Source of the DNA: Flavobacteriales bacterium
Lineage (GTDB): Bacteria; Bacteroidota; Bacteroidia; Flavobacteriales_D; Sanyastnellaceae
Length of the DNA: 64,000 nt
Assembly: GCA_018402085.1 (NCBI GenBank)
Contig: JAGYJM010000002.1
Location: 1,860,001-1,924,000, forward strand
Direction: 5' to 3'
Position 1 is the first letter of the stretch; each line of letters starts with the position of its first letter. Positions 26,007-36,999 of this stretch are shown one piece after another. Under the pieces are notes generated by a model. The model was not told where the DNA came from. It worked only from the letters and a program-made list of their open reading frames with translations, and did no database searches. The position numbers and the translations under genes are program-made.

Positions 26007-28367
26007 ATGCGACTCATTCTAGCTCTGCTCTTCGTCATAACGTCGTTCTCTTCTTCGGCAAGCACCGAAAAATACCGCCTCATCTGGGTGAATGACCCTT
26101 CTACCACCGTAACCATCGCCTGGAATCAGGTAAGCGGTAACAATCCGATGGTACATTACGGAACCGAAGACCTTGGTGAGGATGCCGAGGCCTACCCAAT
26201 GACCCACGATGTAGATCGTCAGACCGCATTTCGCGGCATGGACAACCGTTTTGCGAGATTAGCGAACCTCGAACCTAACACCACCTACTACTTCGTGATT
26301 TCTGACAGCGAAGGCGTAAGTGAGCGGTTTTGGTTTCGCACAGCTCCGGCAGACAACAGCCGATTGAAGTTTATCAGCGGCGGTGATTCACGAAACAACC
26401 AGACCCCACGCAGAAATGCGAACCGGCTTGTTGCAAAACTGAAACCCCATGCAATCATCTTCAGCGGTGACATGACCGATGATGATACTGACGAAGAATG
26501 GGATGACTGGTTCGAAGACTGGCAGCTCACCATCAGTGAAGACGGACAGCTCTTTCCGATCATTCCGGCGCGCGGCAATCATGAGGACTCTGATGTGGTC
26601 TATAACCTTTTTGACACTACACCCGAAGAGTACTATTCAATCACCTTCGGTGATAACCTCATGCACATCATGACCCTGAATACCAATATTTCGGTATTCG
26701 GCGACCAGAGAGACTGGCTGCTCAATGAACTCGAAAACAGTCAGGATATCATATGGCGTGTGCCACAGTATCACAAACCCATGCGTCCGCATACCTCGAG
26801 TAAACCCGAAGGTATCACCATGTACTTCTCGTGGGCTGAGCTGTTCTATCAGTACCAGGTAAAGCTGGCCATTGAAGGCGATACCCACATGTCAAAGCAC
26901 ACCTATCCGATTCGTCCAACTGACGTACTCGGAGGTGATGCCGGCGATGAAGGCTTTGTGGTGGATCAAGAGAACGGCACTACCTACGTAGGTGAGGGTT
27001 GCTGGGGAGCGCCCTTGCGCGCAGCGGATGACGATAAATCGTGGACCTGTGCCTCAGGTTCATTCAACCAGTTCAAGCTATTGTACGTTGACGAAGAGAC
27101 AATAGAGATGCGCACCATACTCGTTGATAATGCAGAAGAAGTAGGCGAAGTCAGTTATGACGATTACTGGGCCCTGCCCGAAAATCTGGATGTCTGGGCA
27201 CCTGAGTGTGGCGAAGTGGTGTACATCTATCCGGCTGACCCGCTGAATCCGCTGAATATTCAGTTTACCTCCGGTACACCGGTGCTGTATGAAGATGGCA
27301 GTAACCTGAGCTTTGATATTGAGGTTCAGAGTGCCGGTGAGGGCATTACGCAGATTGATTTCAAGGTTGACGGTGCATTGATCGAAACCGACACTGAGGC
27401 TCCGTATAATTTCACCGTTTCTCTTGATCCGGGTCAGTATGTGATCGAGGCAGAAGCCTCGGATGCGTCGAATCAGTTTGAAACGGCGACACTGAATATT
27501 ACCGTCGGCAACTTCGACGGCAGCGGCACAGCGGTGATTGCACAGGGCGAAGATGACGTTGAAGAAACGGAAGCCGGACTCCTTTACATTGACAGTTCTG
27601 ACCTCGAAATGGTATTTGATGGTCACGATGAATTCAATGATGAAGAAAACGGTTTTCAGACCATTGGACTGCGTTTCGCGGAGGTCTGCATTCCTCCGGG
27701 TGCGACCGTGACTTCTGCCATCCTGCGTTTTACCGCAGATGAAAGTGATAATGAAAATGCACAGCTACGAATCAGGCTGCAAGACAGCGGTAACGCGGAA
27801 CCCTTTGAAAGCGGCGTAAATGAGGTGTCAGGACGTGACTTCGTGAGTGGAGAGGTTCTCTGGATTCCCCAGGCATGGAGCGAAGACGATAACAACAGCG
27901 ATCAGGAAAGTCCGGCGCTCGAAGTGCTTATTCAACAAGTCGTTGACCGGTTAGATTGGACAGGCTGCAACGCCATGGTTTTCGCCATTGACGGTGCAGG
28001 TGTGAGCAGTTACAACGAAGATTCGAAACGTGTGGCAGAGTCATTTGAAGGTGGTGCCCCGGCAGAACTGATCTACTCGTACAGCTTTTCTACTACAGAC
28101 GTACCGGGTGTGGAGGTAAAAGACTCGCCGGTATATATCGTTCCCAACCCGTCAACAGGTGAGGTTGTTATTCGCTATAACGTGAATGAATCCTTCACTG
28201 TTGAGGTCTTCCGAATGAATGGTGCCCTGGTAGAGCGTCGGGAAATCGAAGCCGGTGCTTCTGAAGAGCTTCTTCGCTTCAGCTTTGACCATGCGGGCAC
28301 TTACATGATTGCCCTGAGCAATGACCGGGGTCTGATCAAAGTTGAGAAAGCCATCGTTCTTCGCTAA
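26007..28367 (+). CDS. Secreted metallophosphoesterase with T9SS sorting tail
   Basis: A 786-residue exported phosphatase-like protein. In order: signal peptide; an N-terminal fibronectin-like domain as in purple acid phosphatases (ARLANLEPNTTYYFVISD); a calcineurin-like core with GGDSRNN, FSGDMTDDD, PARGNHED, PQYHKPMRPH and EGDTHMSKH; a bacterial Ig-like domain (about residues 425-505); a disaggregatase/DNRLRE-like beta domain (about 520-690); and a T9SS type A tail beginning IVPNPSTGEVV. The last metal motif reads G-D-T-H where G-H-x-H is normal, so one metal ligand differs. Substrate unknown. It would be released or anchored at the cell surface through the type IX system. Confidence 0.88.
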   Translation: MRLILALLFVITSFSSSASTEKYRLIWVNDPSTTVTIAWNQVSGNNPMVHYGTEDLGEDAEAYPMTHDVDRQTAFRGMDNRFARLANLEPNTTYYFVISDSEGVSERFWFRTAPADNSRLKFISGGDSRNNQTPRRNANRLVAKLKPHAIIFSGDMTDDDTDEEWDDWFEDWQLTISEDGQLFPIIPARGNHEDSDVVYNLFDTTPEEYYSITFGDNLMHIMTLNTNISVFGDQRDWLLNELENSQDIIWRVPQYHKPMRPHTSSKPEGITMYFSWAELFYQYQVKLAIEGDTHMSKHTYPIRPTDVLGGDAGDEGFVVDQENGTTYVGEGCWGAPLRAADDDKSWTCASGSFNQFKLLYVDEETIEMRTILVDNAEEVGEVSYDDYWALPENLDVWAPECGEVVYIYPADPLNPLNIQFTSGTPVLYEDGSNLSFDIEVQSAGEGITQIDFKVDGALIETDTEAPYNFTVSLDPGQYVIEAEASDASNQFETATLNITVGNFDGSGTAVIAQGEDDVEETEAGLLYIDSSDLEMVFDGHDEFNDEENGFQTIGLRFAEVCIPPGATVTSAILRFTADESDNENAQLRIRLQDSGNAEPFESGVNEVSGRDFVSGEVLWIPQAWSEDDNNSDQESPALEVLIQQVVDRLDWTGCNAMVFAIDGAGVSSYNEDSKRVAESFEGGAPAELIYSYSFSTTDVPGVEVKDSPVYIVPNPSTGEVVIRYNVNESFTVEVFRMNGALVERREIEAGASEELLRFSFDHAGTYMIALSNDRGLIKVEKAIVLR

Positions 28368-29190: not shown

Positions 29191-29703
29191 ATGGATGCAT
29201 CGATTACCCATATCCGTCCGCGGTTCAGCTTTGAATTACGCGAACCGCAACCACAGGTGCTAAGGCGTGTGCAGAAAGCCCTCGATCATTGTGGCGGCGA
29301 TTTCACCTGTACACTGATTGACAACCATCTAATCCTCGATATACCCATCAATGACCGTCACTACTGGTCACCACAGCTTAGTTTGCGCATTGAGGCCGAT
29401 GAGTTCGAAGAGAACCTTACTCATGTGAAAGGGCTTATTGGTCCCCGGCCAGCCGTTTGGACCCTTTTCGTCTTCTTTTACTTCGCCATCGGTACGATCG
29501 GGCTCTTTATTGCACTGTGGGGCTTTTCGATCTGGATGCTGGGCGAGTTCTCGCACTACATCTGGGCGCTTCCGATCGCTTTTGCGATCAACCTCACCGC
29601 CTACCGCGCAGGCAAAATCGGTGAACGCCTCGGACACGATCAGGTGGAGGTGCTAAAGGATTTCGTGCGTGGTGTGATTGATCCCCCCCCTCAGCACCAG
29701 TAA
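29191..29703 (+). CDS. Membrane protein with two central helices, hypothetical
   Basis: A 170-residue protein: a soluble N-terminal domain (about residues 1-85), two membrane helices (AVWTLFVFFYFAIGTIGLFI and an HYIWALPIAFAINLTAY segment), and a short soluble C-terminus. No family recognised. It is a single gene in a hairpin-rich intergenic setting and ends one base from the convergent S51 gene, with no terminator between them. Confidence 0.65.
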   Translation: MDASITHIRPRFSFELREPQPQVLRRVQKALDHCGGDFTCTLIDNHLILDIPINDRHYWSPQLSLRIEADEFEENLTHVKGLIGPRPAVWTLFVFFYFAIGTIGLFIALWGFSIWMLGEFSHYIWALPIAFAINLTAYRAGKIGERLGHDQVEVLKDFVRGVIDPPPQHQ

Positions 29704-29704
29704 C

Positions 29705-30982
29705 CTACTGCTTAACAAAGGTACCGCGAGCTCCTGCCGTCACCACTGTGTACAATCCTGTCGGCAGCGTGCTCACTTGAAGCAGGCATCGTTCGGTATT
29801 CGCTTGCGTTTGTATCACGATAGCTCCTTTCGCATCAAATACTTCTACCAGTGCACCTGGTGCACTCTTCAGCGTGACTAGGTCAACAGCAGGATTTGGG
29901 TACAGCGAAAGCTCAATCATTTCTGTCTCCTGCACATCCACGGCGCAGTCGGGTCCACTTCCTGCAGCATCGTTCAGCATACCCGCCTCCACGCTCCAGT
30001 CAAACCACTCGCCGCCCATGTGGGTTTCCCAATCATTTAGGTCGAGGTACTGGCTGCCATCCATCGTAGCGTTGATGCGAAGCGCTTTCAGGGCCTGACC
30101 ACCTTCGTTCCAGGTCAGCGGCTGACCTTCGGCAACTACTTGCGGACCCACATCCCCTTCACAATCGGGACGTACAAAGTACACGTAGTCATTAAATTCA
30201 GGCGCTTCGCCAAAACAGTAGGCAAATCCACCCTCGCTGATGCATACAGCCGCATACTCATCGCAGGCAATCCCTTTTGGATAGGCTCCGGTATCCGCCC
30301 ATATGCGCGCCAAAAACCCTACATGGCGTCCTCGGCGATCGGGATCATCGTAATGGGTATCGGTAACGACATTCTCCATGAAGGGTGCATTCAAGAAATC
30401 CCCATGTCCGAGCTCTGCATACTGATTGAACGGATCGCTGAGCATTTCATCGCTGTAGACCGTTCCGTTCTGCGCGTTAAAGTAGCTACCGCCAAGCACG
30501 GCCATTCCGGCGCTGATGCCGCCCACAACACCGGTGCGCACATTGAGCAGGTTGTTGATCGCATCCTCAATGGCGTTGTCTTTCCAGTAGTCAACGTAGT
30601 TCCACTGGTCGCCTCCGGCCATCCAAATCGCCTCAGCATTTTGAACTTGCTCGATGACATACGCATCCGCCGCTGCTGCGGCGTCATTAAAAACAATGGT
30701 TTCAACTGAATTGACGGTGACACCGAGGTCAGTGAACATGTAATCATTGTAGCCATCTGTACCGGAGGCACGCAGCACAACGACATCCCCGCCATTGGCG
30801 CGCTCGAGGAACCATTGCATGGCCGCATCGTTTTCGCCGGCACCGCCCATGAGCACCACGCCGAATTCGGGATCGACATCAACATCGGCTGAGTCGCCGG
30901 TGAAGTACGAAGTGTAGCTGTCTTGCGACTGCGCAAAAGCGCAGGATGCGAAAAATATCAAGAAGAGTAAAGTCTTTTTCAT
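29705..30982 (-). CDS. Cyanophycinase-like S51 family protein with T9SS sorting tail
   Basis: A 425-residue exported protein related to cyanophycinase and dipeptidase E (peptidase family S51). Signature blocks: VVLMGGAGENDAAMQWFLER, AIWMAGGDQWNYV, the nucleophile elbow GISAGMAVLGG with the likely catalytic Ser, and TDTHYDDPDRRGRHVGFLAR. A signal peptide precedes the enzyme domain and a T9SS type A tail (LSLYPNPAVDLVTL ... to the C-terminus) follows, so it should act at the cell surface. It is the last gene of a SusC-SusD-S51-S51 operon, four bases after the other S51 gene. Two hairpin elements lie in its coding sequence, one encoding the end of the signal peptide (ASCAFAQ). Confidence 0.85.
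   Translation of the reverse strand: MKKTLLFLIFFASCAFAQSQDSYTSYFTGDSADVDVDPEFGVVLMGGAGENDAAMQWFLERANGGDVVVLRASGTDGYNDYMFTDLGVTVNSVETIVFNDAAAAADAYVIEQVQNAEAIWMAGGDQWNYVDYWKDNAIEDAINNLLNVRTGVVGGISAGMAVLGGSYFNAQNGTVYSDEMLSDPFNQYAELGHGDFLNAPFMENVVTDTHYDDPDRRGRHVGFLARIWADTGAYPKGIACDEYAAVCISEGGFAYCFGEAPEFNDYVYFVRPDCEGDVGPQVVAEGQPLTWNEGGQALKALRINATMDGSQYLDLNDWETHMGGEWFDWSVEAGMLNDAAGSGPDCAVDVQETEMIELSLYPNPAVDLVTLKSAPGALVEVFDAKGAIVIQTQANTERCLLQVSTLPTGLYTVVTAGARGTFVKQ
30663..30683 (+). repeat. Dispersed hairpin element, copy 7 (in coding sequence)
   Basis: GCATC, stem CGCCGC, loop TGCT, stem GCGGCG; antisense to the S51 gene, where it encodes AAAAADA. Confidence 0.8.
30929..30949 (-). repeat. Dispersed hairpin element, copy 8 (in coding sequence)
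   Basis: Minus-strand reading: GCATC, stem CTGCGC, loop TTTT, stem GCGCAG. Same strand as the S51 gene, encoding ASCAFAQ at the signal peptide cleavage region. Confidence 0.85.
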
Positions 30983-30985
30983 AAT

Positions 30986-31879
30986 TCACTTTTTATCAGT
31001 TGAATGCCCCGGTAACCATACATCGAGGCGAATGTTTTCCATACCTATTAAGCCCGAAGAAACTGCTTGAGCTGGTCCTCCGGAAAATACAACAACTTGT
31101 CCTTCACCGGCCACACGGTACCCGGATGAACTGACAATCAAAGCCGTAGACTCACCGATACCGAACACGGGTACCTGGTGATCGTGCAATGCCGTCAATG
31201 CACGATTGTAGCGGCTGCGCTCCACGAAATGCTGATCGATGATCGCATTCGGGAAAAGACCAAGTCCTTCACTGTAAACCCCATTCTCAGCCATCAATCG
31301 GCTGTAGGTTGATTCATATTCCTGCGCTCGTTGTTGGTCGCCCGTAATCATCACACTGCTCATCACTGCCGCACCTGCGCTGGTTCCGGCAATCACACAG
31401 CCCCTGCGGTAGCATTCTGATAGCTCCTGCCTTACCTCATCACTAAGCGCTTTCATGAGCCGGTTCTGATCGCCACCGGTGAAATAGATCAAACCGGCAG
31501 CTCGCAGGCTGTCAAGCAGTCCCTGTGTGGGCTCTTCGGTCTCCGGTGTCAGCCAGTGCACATTCGGACAACCGAGTTCTGTGAACTGTCGCATAGCGTA
31601 GTAAGCTGAGGTATCCGGCTCACTGCTTGCCATAGGCAAGACCAGAATGAGTTCGCCGTTCGAGGGCATGAGATCAACCAGTGATTTGACGAGCGCGGGC
31701 GGACGTTTCCCTCCTCCGATGATAAACAGCGCACCTTCACCGGCAGGAGGCTCCGGCAATACCTGCTCAGCTTCTGCTTCATCAGGTATTCTTCCCGAAA
31801 TTTCCGCCACCGGCTCCGTGCAGCTCCATAAAAGAACTGCGGCTATTGGTCCTGCCCACCGCTTTGCGAATCTTTTCAT
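30986..31879 (-). CDS. Cyanophycinase-like S51 peptidase, lipoprotein
   Basis: A 297-residue S51 family protein. Lipoprotein signal MKRFAKRWAGPIAAVLLWSC is followed by ALFIIGGGKRPPALVKSLVD, IYFTGGDQNRLMKAL, the nucleophile motif AGTSAGAAVMS, IDQHFVERSRYNRAL and FGIGESTALIV, which together are the standard cyanophycinase pattern (Gln and His near the active site, catalytic Ser in GTSAG). Cyanophycinases release beta-Asp-Arg dipeptides from the cyanobacterial storage polymer cyanophycin; related S51 enzymes cut other Asp-containing peptides. It follows the SusD gene by four bases and precedes the T9SS-tailed S51 gene by three, so all are one operon. Confidence 0.88.
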   Translation of the reverse strand: MKRFAKRWAGPIAAVLLWSCTEPVAEISGRIPDEAEAEQVLPEPPAGEGALFIIGGGKRPPALVKSLVDLMPSNGELILVLPMASSEPDTSAYYAMRQFTELGCPNVHWLTPETEEPTQGLLDSLRAAGLIYFTGGDQNRLMKALSDEVRQELSECYRRGCVIAGTSAGAAVMSSVMITGDQQRAQEYESTYSRLMAENGVYSEGLGLFPNAIIDQHFVERSRYNRALTALHDHQVPVFGIGESTALIVSSSGYRVAGEGQVVVFSGGPAQAVSSGLIGMENIRLDVWLPGHSTDKK

Positions 31880-31883
31880 CTTA

Positions 31884-33239
31884 TCACGGATTCATCCACC
31901 ACATCGCCGTCTGCATGTTTGGCAATGGTGTGGGTACGTTTGGGTTCAAGAGTCGCTCATTCTGAGGGTACATTAATCGCAATGGAATCTCGCCATTTGG
32001 ATTCGATGCACTCACGGCTCCTTCATTCGGTTCAAGCTGCGGGTAACCGGTACGGCGGTAATCCACCCAGGGTTCCTGCGTAGTGAACAGTGCTACATAC
32101 TTCTGTTCGATCAGTACTTCAAGGTCACTCTCAAAATCCCCGCTAAGTGCAAACTCTCCAACGAACTCGTCAATTTCCTCGGTGGTTAGCGTTCCGAAGG
32201 TGTTGTCCTCCACGCTCGTTCGGATGGCCTCCTGAAGTGCTTCTTCTGCCTGGGGCAATTGTCCGGTTCTCAGGTAACACTCAGCCTCAATAAACTTCTG
32301 TTCGACATACGATATGAACTTGATAGGTGAGTCAGGGGAAGCAAGCGCCTCTCCTACTTTGCTCTCTCCTCCGGTGAACGGAATAATATCAACGAAGAAG
32401 TCAAACCGCGGATCCTGAATGCCGATAATCCCCACAAACTGCTGATCAATGATCGCATTGGGCGTAATCTCGTAGTACTGAAAGATCGGATTCGCATCTA
32501 CATCCGTACCCAGATAACTGTATTGAAAGTCTTCAAATGAATTGCTGAAGGCACCCTGAGCCGCCGTCAGCGCCTGCGAGGCTGCGTTTGGGTCTACATT
32601 CACCTGATGCAACAGGTAACGGGCTTTAAGCGCATTTGCTGCTTTGATCCATGCCATGAGATCTCCCTGGTAAACGAGGTCGTCATTCCCCGGCGAGAAC
32701 ACGCTTTCCGGTGCCTGAAGGTCTTCAACGGCATCATCGAGCAACTGAATGATCTGCGCATACACCTCCGGCTGGCTGTCATAACCCGGCTGCACATTCG
32801 ATGCGCTGAGAGCCTCAGAATAGGGCACAGCACCCCAGAAGTCTGTCACCACTCCGAGCGCAGAAGCCATCAAGATTTTTCCTACTCCTTCGTAATGAGG
32901 TGCTTCCTGAGCTTCTGCCTTATCAATTAGAAAGCGCAGCTTGATCATCGAGCCCGCGTAAAAGTCATCCCAGAGGTAGCCCACGAAAAGCTCGTCAGGA
33001 CTGTAGTTTTCGGTGTTCAGTTCCTGGTTATTGGTTCCCTGAAGATGTTGTGAGAAGATGTTGCTGTATCGAAACGCACGGCCGCCAATAGCCTCAGCAA
33101 GATCAAACTGTGCCGGTGGCAACAGTGTCTCCAATGGCACGTCATCTGGTACATTTGGGTTCTCATTTACCTCTGCCAACTGGCAACCTGCGAATAAGAA
33201 CATACTTGTAATCAGGTATATCAATTTTTTCATGGTCAT
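31884..33239 (-). CDS. SusD/RagB-family nutrient-binding lipoprotein
   Basis: A 451-residue surface lipoprotein. A signal with lipobox (LITSMFLFAGCQ) is followed by the TPR-like SusD fold: NENPNVPDDVPLETLLPPAQ, RYSNIFSQHLQGTNNQ, SALGVVTDFWGAVPYSEAL, AYLLHQ-type helices and, near the end, VALFTTQEPWVDYRRTGYP then PLRLMYPQNERLLNPNVP. This is the branch of SusD-like proteins that often pairs with peptide-targeting SusC. Its ATG shares the final A of the SusC stop (TGATG), so translation is coupled; a second ATG two codons later is also possible. Confidence 0.9.
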   Translation of the reverse strand: MTMKKLIYLITSMFLFAGCQLAEVNENPNVPDDVPLETLLPPAQFDLAEAIGGRAFRYSNIFSQHLQGTNNQELNTENYSPDELFVGYLWDDFYAGSMIKLRFLIDKAEAQEAPHYEGVGKILMASALGVVTDFWGAVPYSEALSASNVQPGYDSQPEVYAQIIQLLDDAVEDLQAPESVFSPGNDDLVYQGDLMAWIKAANALKARYLLHQVNVDPNAASQALTAAQGAFSNSFEDFQYSYLGTDVDANPIFQYYEITPNAIIDQQFVGIIGIQDPRFDFFVDIIPFTGGESKVGEALASPDSPIKFISYVEQKFIEAECYLRTGQLPQAEEALQEAIRTSVEDNTFGTLTTEEIDEFVGEFALSGDFESDLEVLIEQKYVALFTTQEPWVDYRRTGYPQLEPNEGAVSASNPNGEIPLRLMYPQNERLLNPNVPTPLPNMQTAMWWMNP

Positions 33240-36200
33240 CAGAATTGAAGGTTCAGCTGAAGTCCGACACTGCGGGTATTGGGTGAATTGAAATAATCAC
33301 GACCGAAGCTATTCGCTGCTCCGGAGAGTGAGGTTTCAGGGTCAATGCCTGAGTAGTTGGTAAACAGCAATAGATTTCGGGTGATGAGACCAATGCTTGC
33401 ACCCTTAATCTTAAGTCGGTCTGACATTTCACGCGGCATTGTCCAGGTGATGCTAAGGTCTCGCAAGCGCAGCCAATTTACCGTTTCAATACCCGTTTCG
33501 CTGACTCCGACAAGCCCATATCGGGTATAAAATGATTGATCAAGCGGAATGGCCACATCGTTCGCTTCGCCGGTGTTCACGTTGACACCTTCCCACACCA
33601 TCGTTTCTTCACGGTTCTCAGTGTCGATGTGCGTTCCGTGAAAGCGCATCACATTCGCCGTGCCATTGAAGAGGTCACCACCTATCCGGACGTCTATCAG
33701 AAAGCTCAAGGCAAACTGACGCCAGGTCAGGGTGTTTCGCCAACCCATGGTAAAGTCTGGGTTCGGATCCCCCACGATCTGGCGCTCGCTATCCACGATC
33801 GGGTAGCCCTCATCGTTCACGAGAATATTTCCTGCGTCATCGCGCGCCCAGGCTGTTCCCATGAGAACGCCGTATGGCTGTCCGCTGACAACGGTTGATT
33901 GGGTACTCGCCAGACCAAAACTTGGCAGAGGCAGCTCATCCAGGCCATCAAGAATGCTCACCACCTCGTTACGCAGGCGGTTAAAATTCAAACTGCTCTC
34001 CCACCCGAGCTGTCGATTCGACTCCGCTTCGAGAATCGTTGCATCCAGCAGGATCTCCAATCCGGTATTGCGAATCGGACCTGTGCCATTCAACACCGCT
34101 GTTGTGTAACCTGAACTTGACGGAATAAACGAAATGATAATTGGATCTGTGGTTTCTGAACGGTACCAGGTAACGTCGAGTCCGAATCGATTCTCAAAAA
34201 ACCGCATATCTGTTCCAAACTCAATGGTGCTGGTTGTTTCCGGACGAAGGTTTGGGTTGCCGATTTCTCCGTTCGGTTCAAAGCTGAGCTGACCTTGCAC
34301 CGGTGCTGCCGCATTGAAGAAGTTCGAGGTGAGGTAAGGACTTGGTGCACCGTTACCCACGTTGGCGAAGCTCGCACGCAGCTTTCCGTATGAGAGTACT
34401 TTTGAATCCATCTGCGCAGCCTCTGTGAAAATGAAGCCAAGATTCATAGACGGATAAAAGAAACTGTTGTTGTTCTCCGGTAGGTTTGACAGCCAGTCGT
34501 TCCTTGCAGTCACGCCTAGAAACAGATAGTCGCGAAAACCGATATTGGCATCAACATAAGCGCCAACGCCTCTTTCACGGGTGAGAAAATCATCTGCAAT
34601 GACATTGATGATATCTACGTTCGATATGTCGTAGAAATCAGGAATAATGAACCCTACCCCATCGAGTTCTGTGTCTGTCGTCTCGTAGTTAAAGTAGTTA
34701 TGGCCGAGCGTAGCACTCAACTCCCAGTCTTCTCCAAATGACTGATTATAAAGAAAGAAGAGGTCATTATTCAGGTTTTGCTGCACCGTTGTCGCATTGA
34801 AAATCCGCCCCCCCAGATCACGGTACTCCGCAGAGCGTCCGTCCCAGTGGCTCTTACTTTGCTGGTTGTAGTAATCGCTGCTGATTCGGTTTATAACGCT
34901 GAGATGCTCCGTCAGGTCAAGTCGAGTCTCCAAGCTTGCAATCACACGATGGATGTCTTCGCGTGAACGGTTTCTATTCACCGACCAGTAAGGGTTATCA
35001 TATACCGCATGATAGGTACGTTGAGATCCGTCCGGATTTTCGTAGGCCATTGGTTCATCTACCGGATTGTCAAAACCATTTGCCAGATCGAAATCGGCCG
35101 GTGCCCGCATGAGTCCCAGCATAACCCCACTCAAATTTGAACCGCGTTGACCCCTGTCGGCCCCTGAGTTCACAAAGTTGACATTCGTTTGGATGTGAAG
35201 GCGGTCTTTCCAGCTTGTTCGGCCGGTCAGACGAAGGTTGGTTCTGCGGAAGCTTGTCAGCGGCACAATTCCTTGTTGAGAGGTATTGCCGAGCGATACC
35301 AGAAAGTTTGTGGTCTTATTTCCGCCTTCAAAGCTGAGGTAGTTATTCGTCGTCACTCCGGTCTGAAAAAAGCGATCTGCATGATCATACGAGTCGCCCG
35401 AGATTGACGGCCCCCAGGAAAAGCGCGACCCTTCTACGAATTCGTCATTCTCTCCCTGCCCATACAACAGTTGCGTGTGAGGCAGCTTGTTCACCTGATC
35501 AAAGTTTACCGATGAACGGAAATTTATGCGCGTTTCACCACTCCCCGATTTTGTCGTAATGATGACCGCGCCATTTCCGGCTCGCACCCCGTAAAGAGCA
35601 GATGCCGGACCGCCCTTTAAAACGGTGATACGCTCAATGTCATCAGGGTTGATGTCGATAGCTCGATTGGCCTGATCAGTGAAGTTTGAGCCGCGGTAGC
35701 TGTCGTCTACAGGCACACCGTCAATAACGTAGAGCGGGGCATTACTTCCCGAAATCGACTTGTTGCCTCGAATCCGCACTGACGTGCTAGCCCCCGGCGT
35801 GCCGGATGACGATGTGACCTGCACCCCCGCCACCTTTGCGTTCAGTGCATTCATCAGGTTCATCTCTCCCGAACGTTCGAGTTCATCTTCTCCTACTTCA
35901 GTGACCGCGTATCCAATCTTCCGCTTATCCTTTTTGATGCCGATTGCTGTGACCACGGCTTCTTCAAGCATCACCTGATCAGGCAACAGTTTCACATTGA
36001 TCTCACTTCTCCCGTCGATAGCGACCTCCTGCTTTTTATAACCGATGAATGAGAAGATCAGCGTTCCGGTCTTAAAAGCATCATCACCCACTTCGAGTGA
36101 ATAATCTCCATCGAGTCCGCTGAACGCTCCGGTGTTTTTTCCTTTCAGCACCACTGTAACGCCAAGCAAGTTCTCACCGGTTTCAGCGTCTGTTACCACA

Positions 36201-36289
36201 CCACTCACAGATTGCTGACTGAATGTCGGTATCGCTGCCGACACGCATAGCAACAACAGCAGCATTTTCCAATGCGTATTGAATTTCAT
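33239..36289 (-). CDS. SusC/RagA-family TonB-linked outer-membrane transporter
   Basis: A 1016-residue TonB-dependent transporter of the SusC type. Signal peptide, then a carboxypeptidase-like regulatory domain (VSGVVTDAETGENLLGVTVV ... GLDGDYSLEV), the plug (LMNALNAKVAGVQVTSSSG, SVRIRGNKSISGSNAPLYVI, DGVPVDDSYRG, IERITVLKGGPASALYG) and a long beta-barrel ending GLQLNLQF. With the SusD lipoprotein it would form the lid-and-barrel complex that imports oligomers across the outer membrane. First gene of the operon with two S51 peptidases, which suggests that peptides rather than glycans are the cargo. No sigma/anti-sigma pair or hybrid sensor is seen beside it. Confidence 0.92.
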   Translation of the reverse strand: MKFNTHWKMLLLLLCVSAAIPTFSQQSVSGVVTDAETGENLLGVTVVLKGKNTGAFSGLDGDYSLEVGDDAFKTGTLIFSFIGYKKQEVAIDGRSEINVKLLPDQVMLEEAVVTAIGIKKDKRKIGYAVTEVGEDELERSGEMNLMNALNAKVAGVQVTSSSGTPGASTSVRIRGNKSISGSNAPLYVIDGVPVDDSYRGSNFTDQANRAIDINPDDIERITVLKGGPASALYGVRAGNGAVIITTKSGSGETRINFRSSVNFDQVNKLPHTQLLYGQGENDEFVEGSRFSWGPSISGDSYDHADRFFQTGVTTNNYLSFEGGNKTTNFLVSLGNTSQQGIVPLTSFRRTNLRLTGRTSWKDRLHIQTNVNFVNSGADRGQRGSNLSGVMLGLMRAPADFDLANGFDNPVDEPMAYENPDGSQRTYHAVYDNPYWSVNRNRSREDIHRVIASLETRLDLTEHLSVINRISSDYYNQQSKSHWDGRSAEYRDLGGRIFNATTVQQNLNNDLFFLYNQSFGEDWELSATLGHNYFNYETTDTELDGVGFIIPDFYDISNVDIINVIADDFLTRERGVGAYVDANIGFRDYLFLGVTARNDWLSNLPENNNSFFYPSMNLGFIFTEAAQMDSKVLSYGKLRASFANVGNGAPSPYLTSNFFNAAAPVQGQLSFEPNGEIGNPNLRPETTSTIEFGTDMRFFENRFGLDVTWYRSETTDPIIISFIPSSSGYTTAVLNGTGPIRNTGLEILLDATILEAESNRQLGWESSLNFNRLRNEVVSILDGLDELPLPSFGLASTQSTVVSGQPYGVLMGTAWARDDAGNILVNDEGYPIVDSERQIVGDPNPDFTMGWRNTLTWRQFALSFLIDVRIGGDLFNGTANVMRFHGTHIDTENREETMVWEGVNVNTGEANDVAIPLDQSFYTRYGLVGVSETGIETVNWLRLRDLSITWTMPREMSDRLKIKGASIGLITRNLLLFTNYSGIDPETSLSGAANSFGRDYFNSPNTRSVGLQLNLQF

Positions 36290-36570: not shown

Positions 36571-36999
36571 TTAATCCCGGTCTCTGGTCATTTTCACATC
36601 CATCAGCGCGCCCGGTGAAGGAGCAAATTCAAACCAGAGGTCATTTCGCGTGAGCCGGTTAATCTGAATCTCGAATACTTCTCCTGAATCGAAAGTGAGT
36701 TGAACGGCTTCTTTATCCTGCACGAACTCCCAAACCCCGGTGAGTCTGCCACCTTCAAGGCCTTCCTCTGTTAAAAATAAACTGGCGTTTCGCTCTTCAA
36801 AGAATCCATCTCGCATGAATTCGAGTTCGTACGGGAATTCAATCGGACCCAAAAAGCTTTCTTCCATGCCGCCCCAGACTGTACAAAGCCGGTGTTTCTT
36901 AGACAGCAATGAGAACATAGGCCCGTCTTCATACTTGCCGCATGATGAGATACCAAGAATACTAATACCCAAAAGGAGGAAGATCAAGTTGCGTGTCAT
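36571..36999 (-). CDS. Small lipoprotein, lipocalin-like
   Basis: A 142-residue lipoprotein. Signal MTRNLIFLLLGISILGISSC is followed by GKYEDGPMFSLLSKKHRLCT, a start pattern found in many Bacteroidota lipocalin-like lipoproteins (KYEDGP..SL.SK..RL), then a run of short beta strands (YELEFMRDGFFEERN, GVWEFVQDKEAVQLTF). It would sit in the periplasm or outer membrane. It precedes the SusC operon on the same strand but 280 bases away, so co-regulation is uncertain. Function unknown. Confidence 0.7.
   Translation of the reverse strand: MTRNLIFLLLGISILGISSCGKYEDGPMFSLLSKKHRLCTVWGGMEESFLGPIEFPYELEFMRDGFFEERNASLFLTEEGLEGGRLTGVWEFVQDKEAVQLTFDSGEVFEIQINRLTRNDLWFEFAPSPGALMDVKMTRDRD

Follow-up and report, generated by a model that had tools for sequence, protein, structure and literature searches.

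A 64,000-nucleotide stretch of a Flavobacteriales genome (hereafter the window) carries a four-gene locus, encoding a SusC/SusD importer and two S51-family enzymes, that serves, with a probability that we put at about 78%, for the scavenging of cyanophycin at the cell surface and for its import. The locus is conserved, and it is probably functional in this role. Residue conservation, phylogeny, fold and gene neighborhoods make this a well-supported functional assignment at the level of sequence and model, and we infer the substrate, the enzyme activity, the surface exposure, the direction of transport and the regulation. Cyanophycin is a nitrogen-rich storage polymer of cyanobacteria that can be released when these organisms die. 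Nitrogen makes up approximately a quarter of its mass (PMC10206079).

Organization of the locus

The genes lie in the order SusC-SusD-S51A-S51B, co-directional on the minus strand (Table 1), with intergenic gaps of -1 base (SusC to SusD), +4 bases (SusD to S51A) and +3 bases (S51A to S51B), and the matches of all four proteins in Pfam and NCBIfam scans are above cut-off. The first-pass annotation, which had described a SusC/SusD pair followed at gaps of four bases or fewer by a lipid-anchored S51 enzyme and a T9SS-tailed S51 enzyme, was therefore correct in its gene calls, every open reading frame being present at the coordinates in Table 1.

Table 1. Genes of the candidate cyanophycin-scavenging locus, with positions counted from the first letter of the window
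Gene	Position	Strand	Description
SusC	33239..36289	minus	1016 aa; TonB-dependent SusC/RagA outer-membrane transporter; TIGR04056 610.9 bits
SusD-like_2 lipoprotein	31884..33239	minus	451 aa; signal ends FAGC; PF12771 203 bits
S51A	30986..31879	minus	297 aa; lipid-anchored CphB-like cyanophycinase by sequence; signal ends LLWSC
S51B	29705..30982	minus	425 aa; CphE-like S51 enzyme; carries a T9SS sorting domain at its C-terminus

The gene downstream of S51B (29191-29703) is convergent. Directly upstream of SusC lies a gene (36571-36999) for which no match is seen in loci L063 and L064, and which was excluded from the locus definition. Promoter and terminator scans at the locus gave signals at or below chance level, and neither a tRNA nor an Rfam match is present near it. 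A purple acid phosphatase-like protein with a T9SS tail is encoded nearby on the opposite strand (26007-28367), and nothing ties it to the locus. The host genome is near-complete at 3.78 Mb. The four-gene arrangement is not due to chance, because genomes of three families contain SusC-SusD-S51 of this type.

The lipid-anchored enzyme S51A

Judged by its sequence, S51A is a CphB-like cyanophycinase. The protein matches PF03575 with 76 bits in the Pfam scan, and passes the cut-off of the cyanophycinase equivalog TIGR02069 by a narrow margin (130.2 bits versus 126.6 bits), below which its L224 orthologue falls (116.6 bits). In the alignment with Synechocystis CphB (3EN0), the numbering of which is used here for all S51 residues, the catalytic serine is found in GTSAGA and the histidine in DQHF, and Gln101, Ser132, Asp172, Gln173, His174, Arg178, Arg180, Arg183 and Glu201 are all kept; the residues compared are those listed as critical in PMC3235067. 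The AlphaFold2 model of S51A (pLDDT 87.9) matches the cyanophycinases with Z 30 over 232-237 residues (236-237 residues for 3EN0 and 7UQW), compared to Z 18-23 for other S51 peptidases. One of its top structural matches, 7UQV, bears the title 'pseudo-CphB', and structural likeness by itself is therefore no proof of S51A activity. Although S51A and CphB (3EN0/7UQW) are alike in fold and in all catalytic and pocket residues, they share only 27% identity, and S51A is lipid-anchored and exported. A lipoprotein-type signal is likewise present at the N-terminus of most orthologues in its family.

Plasmid matches of S51A are mostly annotated cyanophycinases, and all three of the annotated plasmid matches that were inspected lie within CphA-asparaginase-cyanophycinase operons. 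In the tree, S51A occupies a clade separate from that of the cyanophycinases adjoining CphA1 in same-family relatives, and two genomes (G016 and G045) carry both kinds. It is extremely improbable that the two S51 enzymes turn over the cell's own cyanophycin, as might be expected given that the cyanophycinase gene is usually found clustered with cphA1, in 81% of the genomes that have the two (PMC10206079). No CphA1 over cut-off is found in the window genome, on which ground this explanation was rejected; moreover, S51A and S51B both bear export signals, and CphA1-bearing relatives possess a separate adjoining cyanophycinase that belongs to the other clade and has no evident signal.

The T9SS-tailed enzyme S51B

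S51B matches PF03575 with 27.7 bits, and its T9SS tail matches TIGR04183 with 32.6 bits against a cut-off of 23. Its TIGR02069 score is below cut-off (46.6 bits versus 126.6 bits), as is that of the Priestia cyanophycinase (75.6 bits). The catalytic domain of the AlphaFold2 model (pLDDT 87.9) matches cyanophycinases with Z 26.6-26.9, the highest value being to 7UQW, and other S51 peptidases with Z 14.7-19.5. S51B is 34.7% identical over 98% of the domain (E 1e-39) to a Priestia megaterium plasmid cyanophycinase, the name of these Priestia plasmid proteins being an automatic annotation. A phylogeny of both S51 proteins, which the first-pass annotation had put forward as a check, sets S51A apart from the CphA1-linked clade, as described above, and groups S51B with the Priestia plasmid enzyme, long branches making the exact order unsure. 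We infer that this plasmid gene is related to the extracellular cyanophycinase that PMC3235067 names for Bacillus megaterium BAC19.

The Ser-His-Glu triad, Gln101, Asp172, Arg180 and Arg183 are kept in S51B, and the motif DTHYDDPDRRGR aligns with D-T-H of CphE, followed by R228, R230 and R233. Threonine stands at the Gln173 position, as it also does in characterized CphE (PMC3235067). The R178 position (CphE R228), which is reported to be critical in CphB (PMC3235067), is occupied by proline. The same is true of all 24 aligned family members and of 92 of the 102 distinct S51B rows; the other 10 have arginine, as do the related cyanophycinases of Priestia and Pseudoalteromonas. S51B therefore resembles the CphE enzymes of Pseudomonas alcaligenes DIP1, P. 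anguilliseptica BI and Bacillus megaterium BAC19 (PMC3235067) in its triad, in Thr173 and in being of the secreted type, but differs from them in its T9SS sorting tail and in this proline, because of which we call it CphE-like and not CphE.

This substitution raises a variant of the main reading in which S51A is the sole cyanophycinase, S51B having lost or changed its activity so that it binds substrate at the surface or cuts a different bond. Besides the predominance of proline at position 178, the additional replacement of Asp172 by Glu in the S51B proteins of L224 and L226 argues for this variant, which we nevertheless consider rather unlikely given that Ser, His, Glu, Gln101, Arg180 and Arg183 are conserved in the window S51B. 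Moreover, Arg or Lys is present at position 181 in 88 of 92 proline rows but in only 2 of 10 arginine rows, and may compensate for R178P; these counts suggest a coupled change at positions 178 and 181, the sign test being not significant (5 independent pairs, median p 0.25). Both S51B proteins of L174, the locus with the richest cyanophycin context, are also proline forms. The cyanophycin utilization proposed in the first-pass annotation thus agrees with residue conservation, phylogeny, fold and neighborhoods, except in the S51B pocket: where active-site residues incompatible with beta-Asp cleavage would have spoken against it, S51A keeps all catalytic and pocket residues, but S51B has lost R178 while keeping the others apart from Gln173.

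The SusC/SusD importer

In the window, a RagA/SusC-type receptor adjoins a SusD-family lipoprotein. When compared with the peptide importers BT2263-2264 and RagAB, the SusC is nearest to BT2264, which is its closest solved structure (PDB 5fq6_B; 347 bits, versus 191 bits for RagA); the BT2263/64 SusCD is known in complex with peptide (PMC7782687). When a profile of this SusD was run against 399 genomes of the order, ten proteins scored 650-828 bits, after which the score drops to 323 bits. Nine of these ten directly adjoin S51 genes, only S51B being present in G082, and the tenth (G125) ends near a contig edge, another contig of the same genome ending within S51A. No S51 gene occurs in the fetched surroundings of the five next-nearest SusDs inspected. 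This SusD subfamily therefore goes with S51 enzymes. The converse fails, however, as numerous S51A and S51B genes lack an adjoining SusCD.

Recurrence in other genomes

The SusCD type of the window is found in ten genomes of three families, and the SusC-SusD-S51A-S51B order is repeated in other families. In genomes belonging to two further families, the fifth operon gene encodes a DcuC/YfcC-type carrier in L224 and L226 (Pfam), with a DcuC homologue in the same place in L225, and IaaA is divergently upstream of the SusC operon in L222, L224 and L267. A conserved T9SS-tailed protein of approximately 300 aa and of no known family is encoded next to IaaA, divergent from the SusC operon (L222:6154-7053, L224:15481-16383, L225:15450-16373 and L267:5664-6575); it is absent from the window.

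In a second locus type, found in Flavobacteriaceae and Saprospiraceae, both S51 types accompany an unrelated SusCD; Winogradskyella, Aequorivita and Polaribacter are among the genera that have it (L131, L140, L145, L152, L161, L164, L175 and L190). The SusD of this type is barely like that of the window (BLASTP E 0.003), and the locus comprises SusCD, two PKD/beta-propeller proteins, S51A, an M20 peptidase (not present in L190) and S51B. CphZ was considered as the identity of the M20 peptidase, for which the nearest solved structures are carboxypeptidase G2; this M20 peptidase could provide the dipeptidase step. Flavobacterium sp. KJJ (L174:200-12939) has the order S51B-SusC-SusD-IaaA-YfcC-like antiporter-S51B-arginine deiminase-like-CtlX, seemingly a near-complete cyanophycin catabolic locus with the citrulline hydrolase CtlX. 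The association of the same two S51 types with unrelated importers, together with these recurring Asp/Arg-handling genes, is the strongest evidence for the substrate.

These neighborhoods also bear on whether the locus scavenges isoaspartyl- or aspartate-rich peptides generally (for example, from aged protein), cyanophycin being at most one substrate. The window SusC is nearest to general peptide-type SusCD, PepE-type aspartyl dipeptidases are also S51 members that match the models at Z 15-22, and the M20 peptidase of one locus type is nearest to carboxypeptidase G2, which is not among the known cyanophycin enzymes. Such a broad role is nonetheless improbable. The cyanophycinase pocket residues are kept in S51A, cyanophycinases rank above PepE-type structures by approximately 8 or more Z units, and the neighboring IaaA, basic amino acid antiporter, arginine deiminase-like and CtlX genes point to an Asp-Arg product.

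Predicted pathway in the window genome

If the locus does act on cyanophycin, S51B, exported by the T9SS, and the lipoprotein S51A would cut the polymer along its poly-Asp backbone, either extracellularly or at the outer membrane, into beta-Asp-Arg dipeptides or short oligomers. These products would be captured by the SusD lid and SusC barrel, and TonB energy would drive their import. S51A may act either before uptake, at the surface, or after it, in the periplasm. A YfcC/DcuC-type carrier encoded elsewhere in the genome would provide inner-membrane transport for the basic product or substrate, and an IaaA-type peptidase, also encoded elsewhere, would split beta-Asp-Arg into Asp and Arg. T9SS export of S51B is uncertain in this strain because sprA, which encodes the T9SS translocon (G000:C2:2716693-2723858, L229), is split in the assembly, where a frameshift lies near C2:2719530. 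That site has no homopolymer run of at least six, and the frameshift may be either real or an assembly error.

No dipeptidase, IadA or IaaA, is among the genes of the window's own cluster. The first-pass annotation had suggested looking for an isoaspartyl dipeptidase elsewhere in the genome. An IaaA-type peptidase is encoded at C2:2435105, approximately 545 kb from the locus, with 50% identity to operon-linked IaaA; IadA, however, has no match over cut-off in the window genome and was rejected as its dipeptidase. DcuC is encoded at C2:2552342 (56-59%), and the genome also has a single PTR2 carrier and three genes of the arginase family. The pathway is therefore completable, but from dispersed genes. 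Putative cyanophycinase genes occur together with a transporter and in the absence of CphA1, as in a cyanophycin utilization locus; a clustered isoaspartyl dipeptidase is lacking in the window but present in the orthologous loci L222, L224 and L267. Our claim is therefore that the locus works like such a locus and is related by descent to complete ones, and does not extend to its having all of the defining parts.

Relation to known systems

Ben Hania and co-workers are said to liken, in their abstract, the transport complex of such a locus to polysaccharide utilization loci. Their 2017 'cyanophycin utilization locus', as presented in PMC10206079, contains cyanophycinases, iadA and a transporter in Salinivirga cyanobacteriivorans L21-Spi-D4, and two S51 proteins are reported from Salinivirga, one of them plain and the other Por-tailed (PMC6243061). 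Insofar as these sources describe it, that locus is like the one in the window in belonging to Bacteroidota, in serving external cyanophycin scavenging, in joining a transporter to cyanophycinases and in pairing a plain with a Por-tailed S51; it differs in having iadA inside the locus, whereas the window cluster has no dipeptidase, with IaaA elsewhere and IadA not found. Cyanophycin has also been predicted as a substrate of TonB-dependent transporters (PMC3400609). In Citromicrobium sp. JLT1363 a TonB-dependent receptor is likewise linked to a cyanophycinase gene, but this organism is alphaproteobacterial and no SusD is reported (PMC3400609). A gammaproteobacterial parallel is seen on a Pseudoalteromonas xiamenensis plasmid (L240:1-4849), where a TonB-dependent receptor is divergent from two tandem S51 genes. 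The first-pass annotation knew of no standard description for a locus of this kind, a view contradicted by the Ben Hania locus, by the Salinivirga S51 pair and by the prediction in PMC3400609, to the extent that these sources present them. The concept of a cyanophycin utilization locus in Bacteroidota is thus not new, the kind being known but little tested. A locus of this kind had previously been published for one bacterium, and the present comparison shows that it is a recurrent, conserved gene set.

We advance a wider proposal only tentatively, with somewhat more doubt than confidence. The SusCD would represent a subfamily dedicated to a beta-linked peptide polymer, and the T9SS-secreted proline-form S51 enzymes would be a distinct subclass of cyanophycinases whose arginine pocket has been rebuilt, and which two or more unrelated SusCD lineages across Bacteroidota have recruited independently of each other in a widespread recycling of cyanobacterial nitrogen. 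If the loci work as proposed, many Bacteroidota would recycle cyanophycin with PUL-like machinery, and the SusCD paradigm, known for glycans and protein peptides, would come to include a non-ribosomal peptide polymer. The SusD subfamily and the S51 pair would then provide a genomic marker for cyanophycin scavengers.
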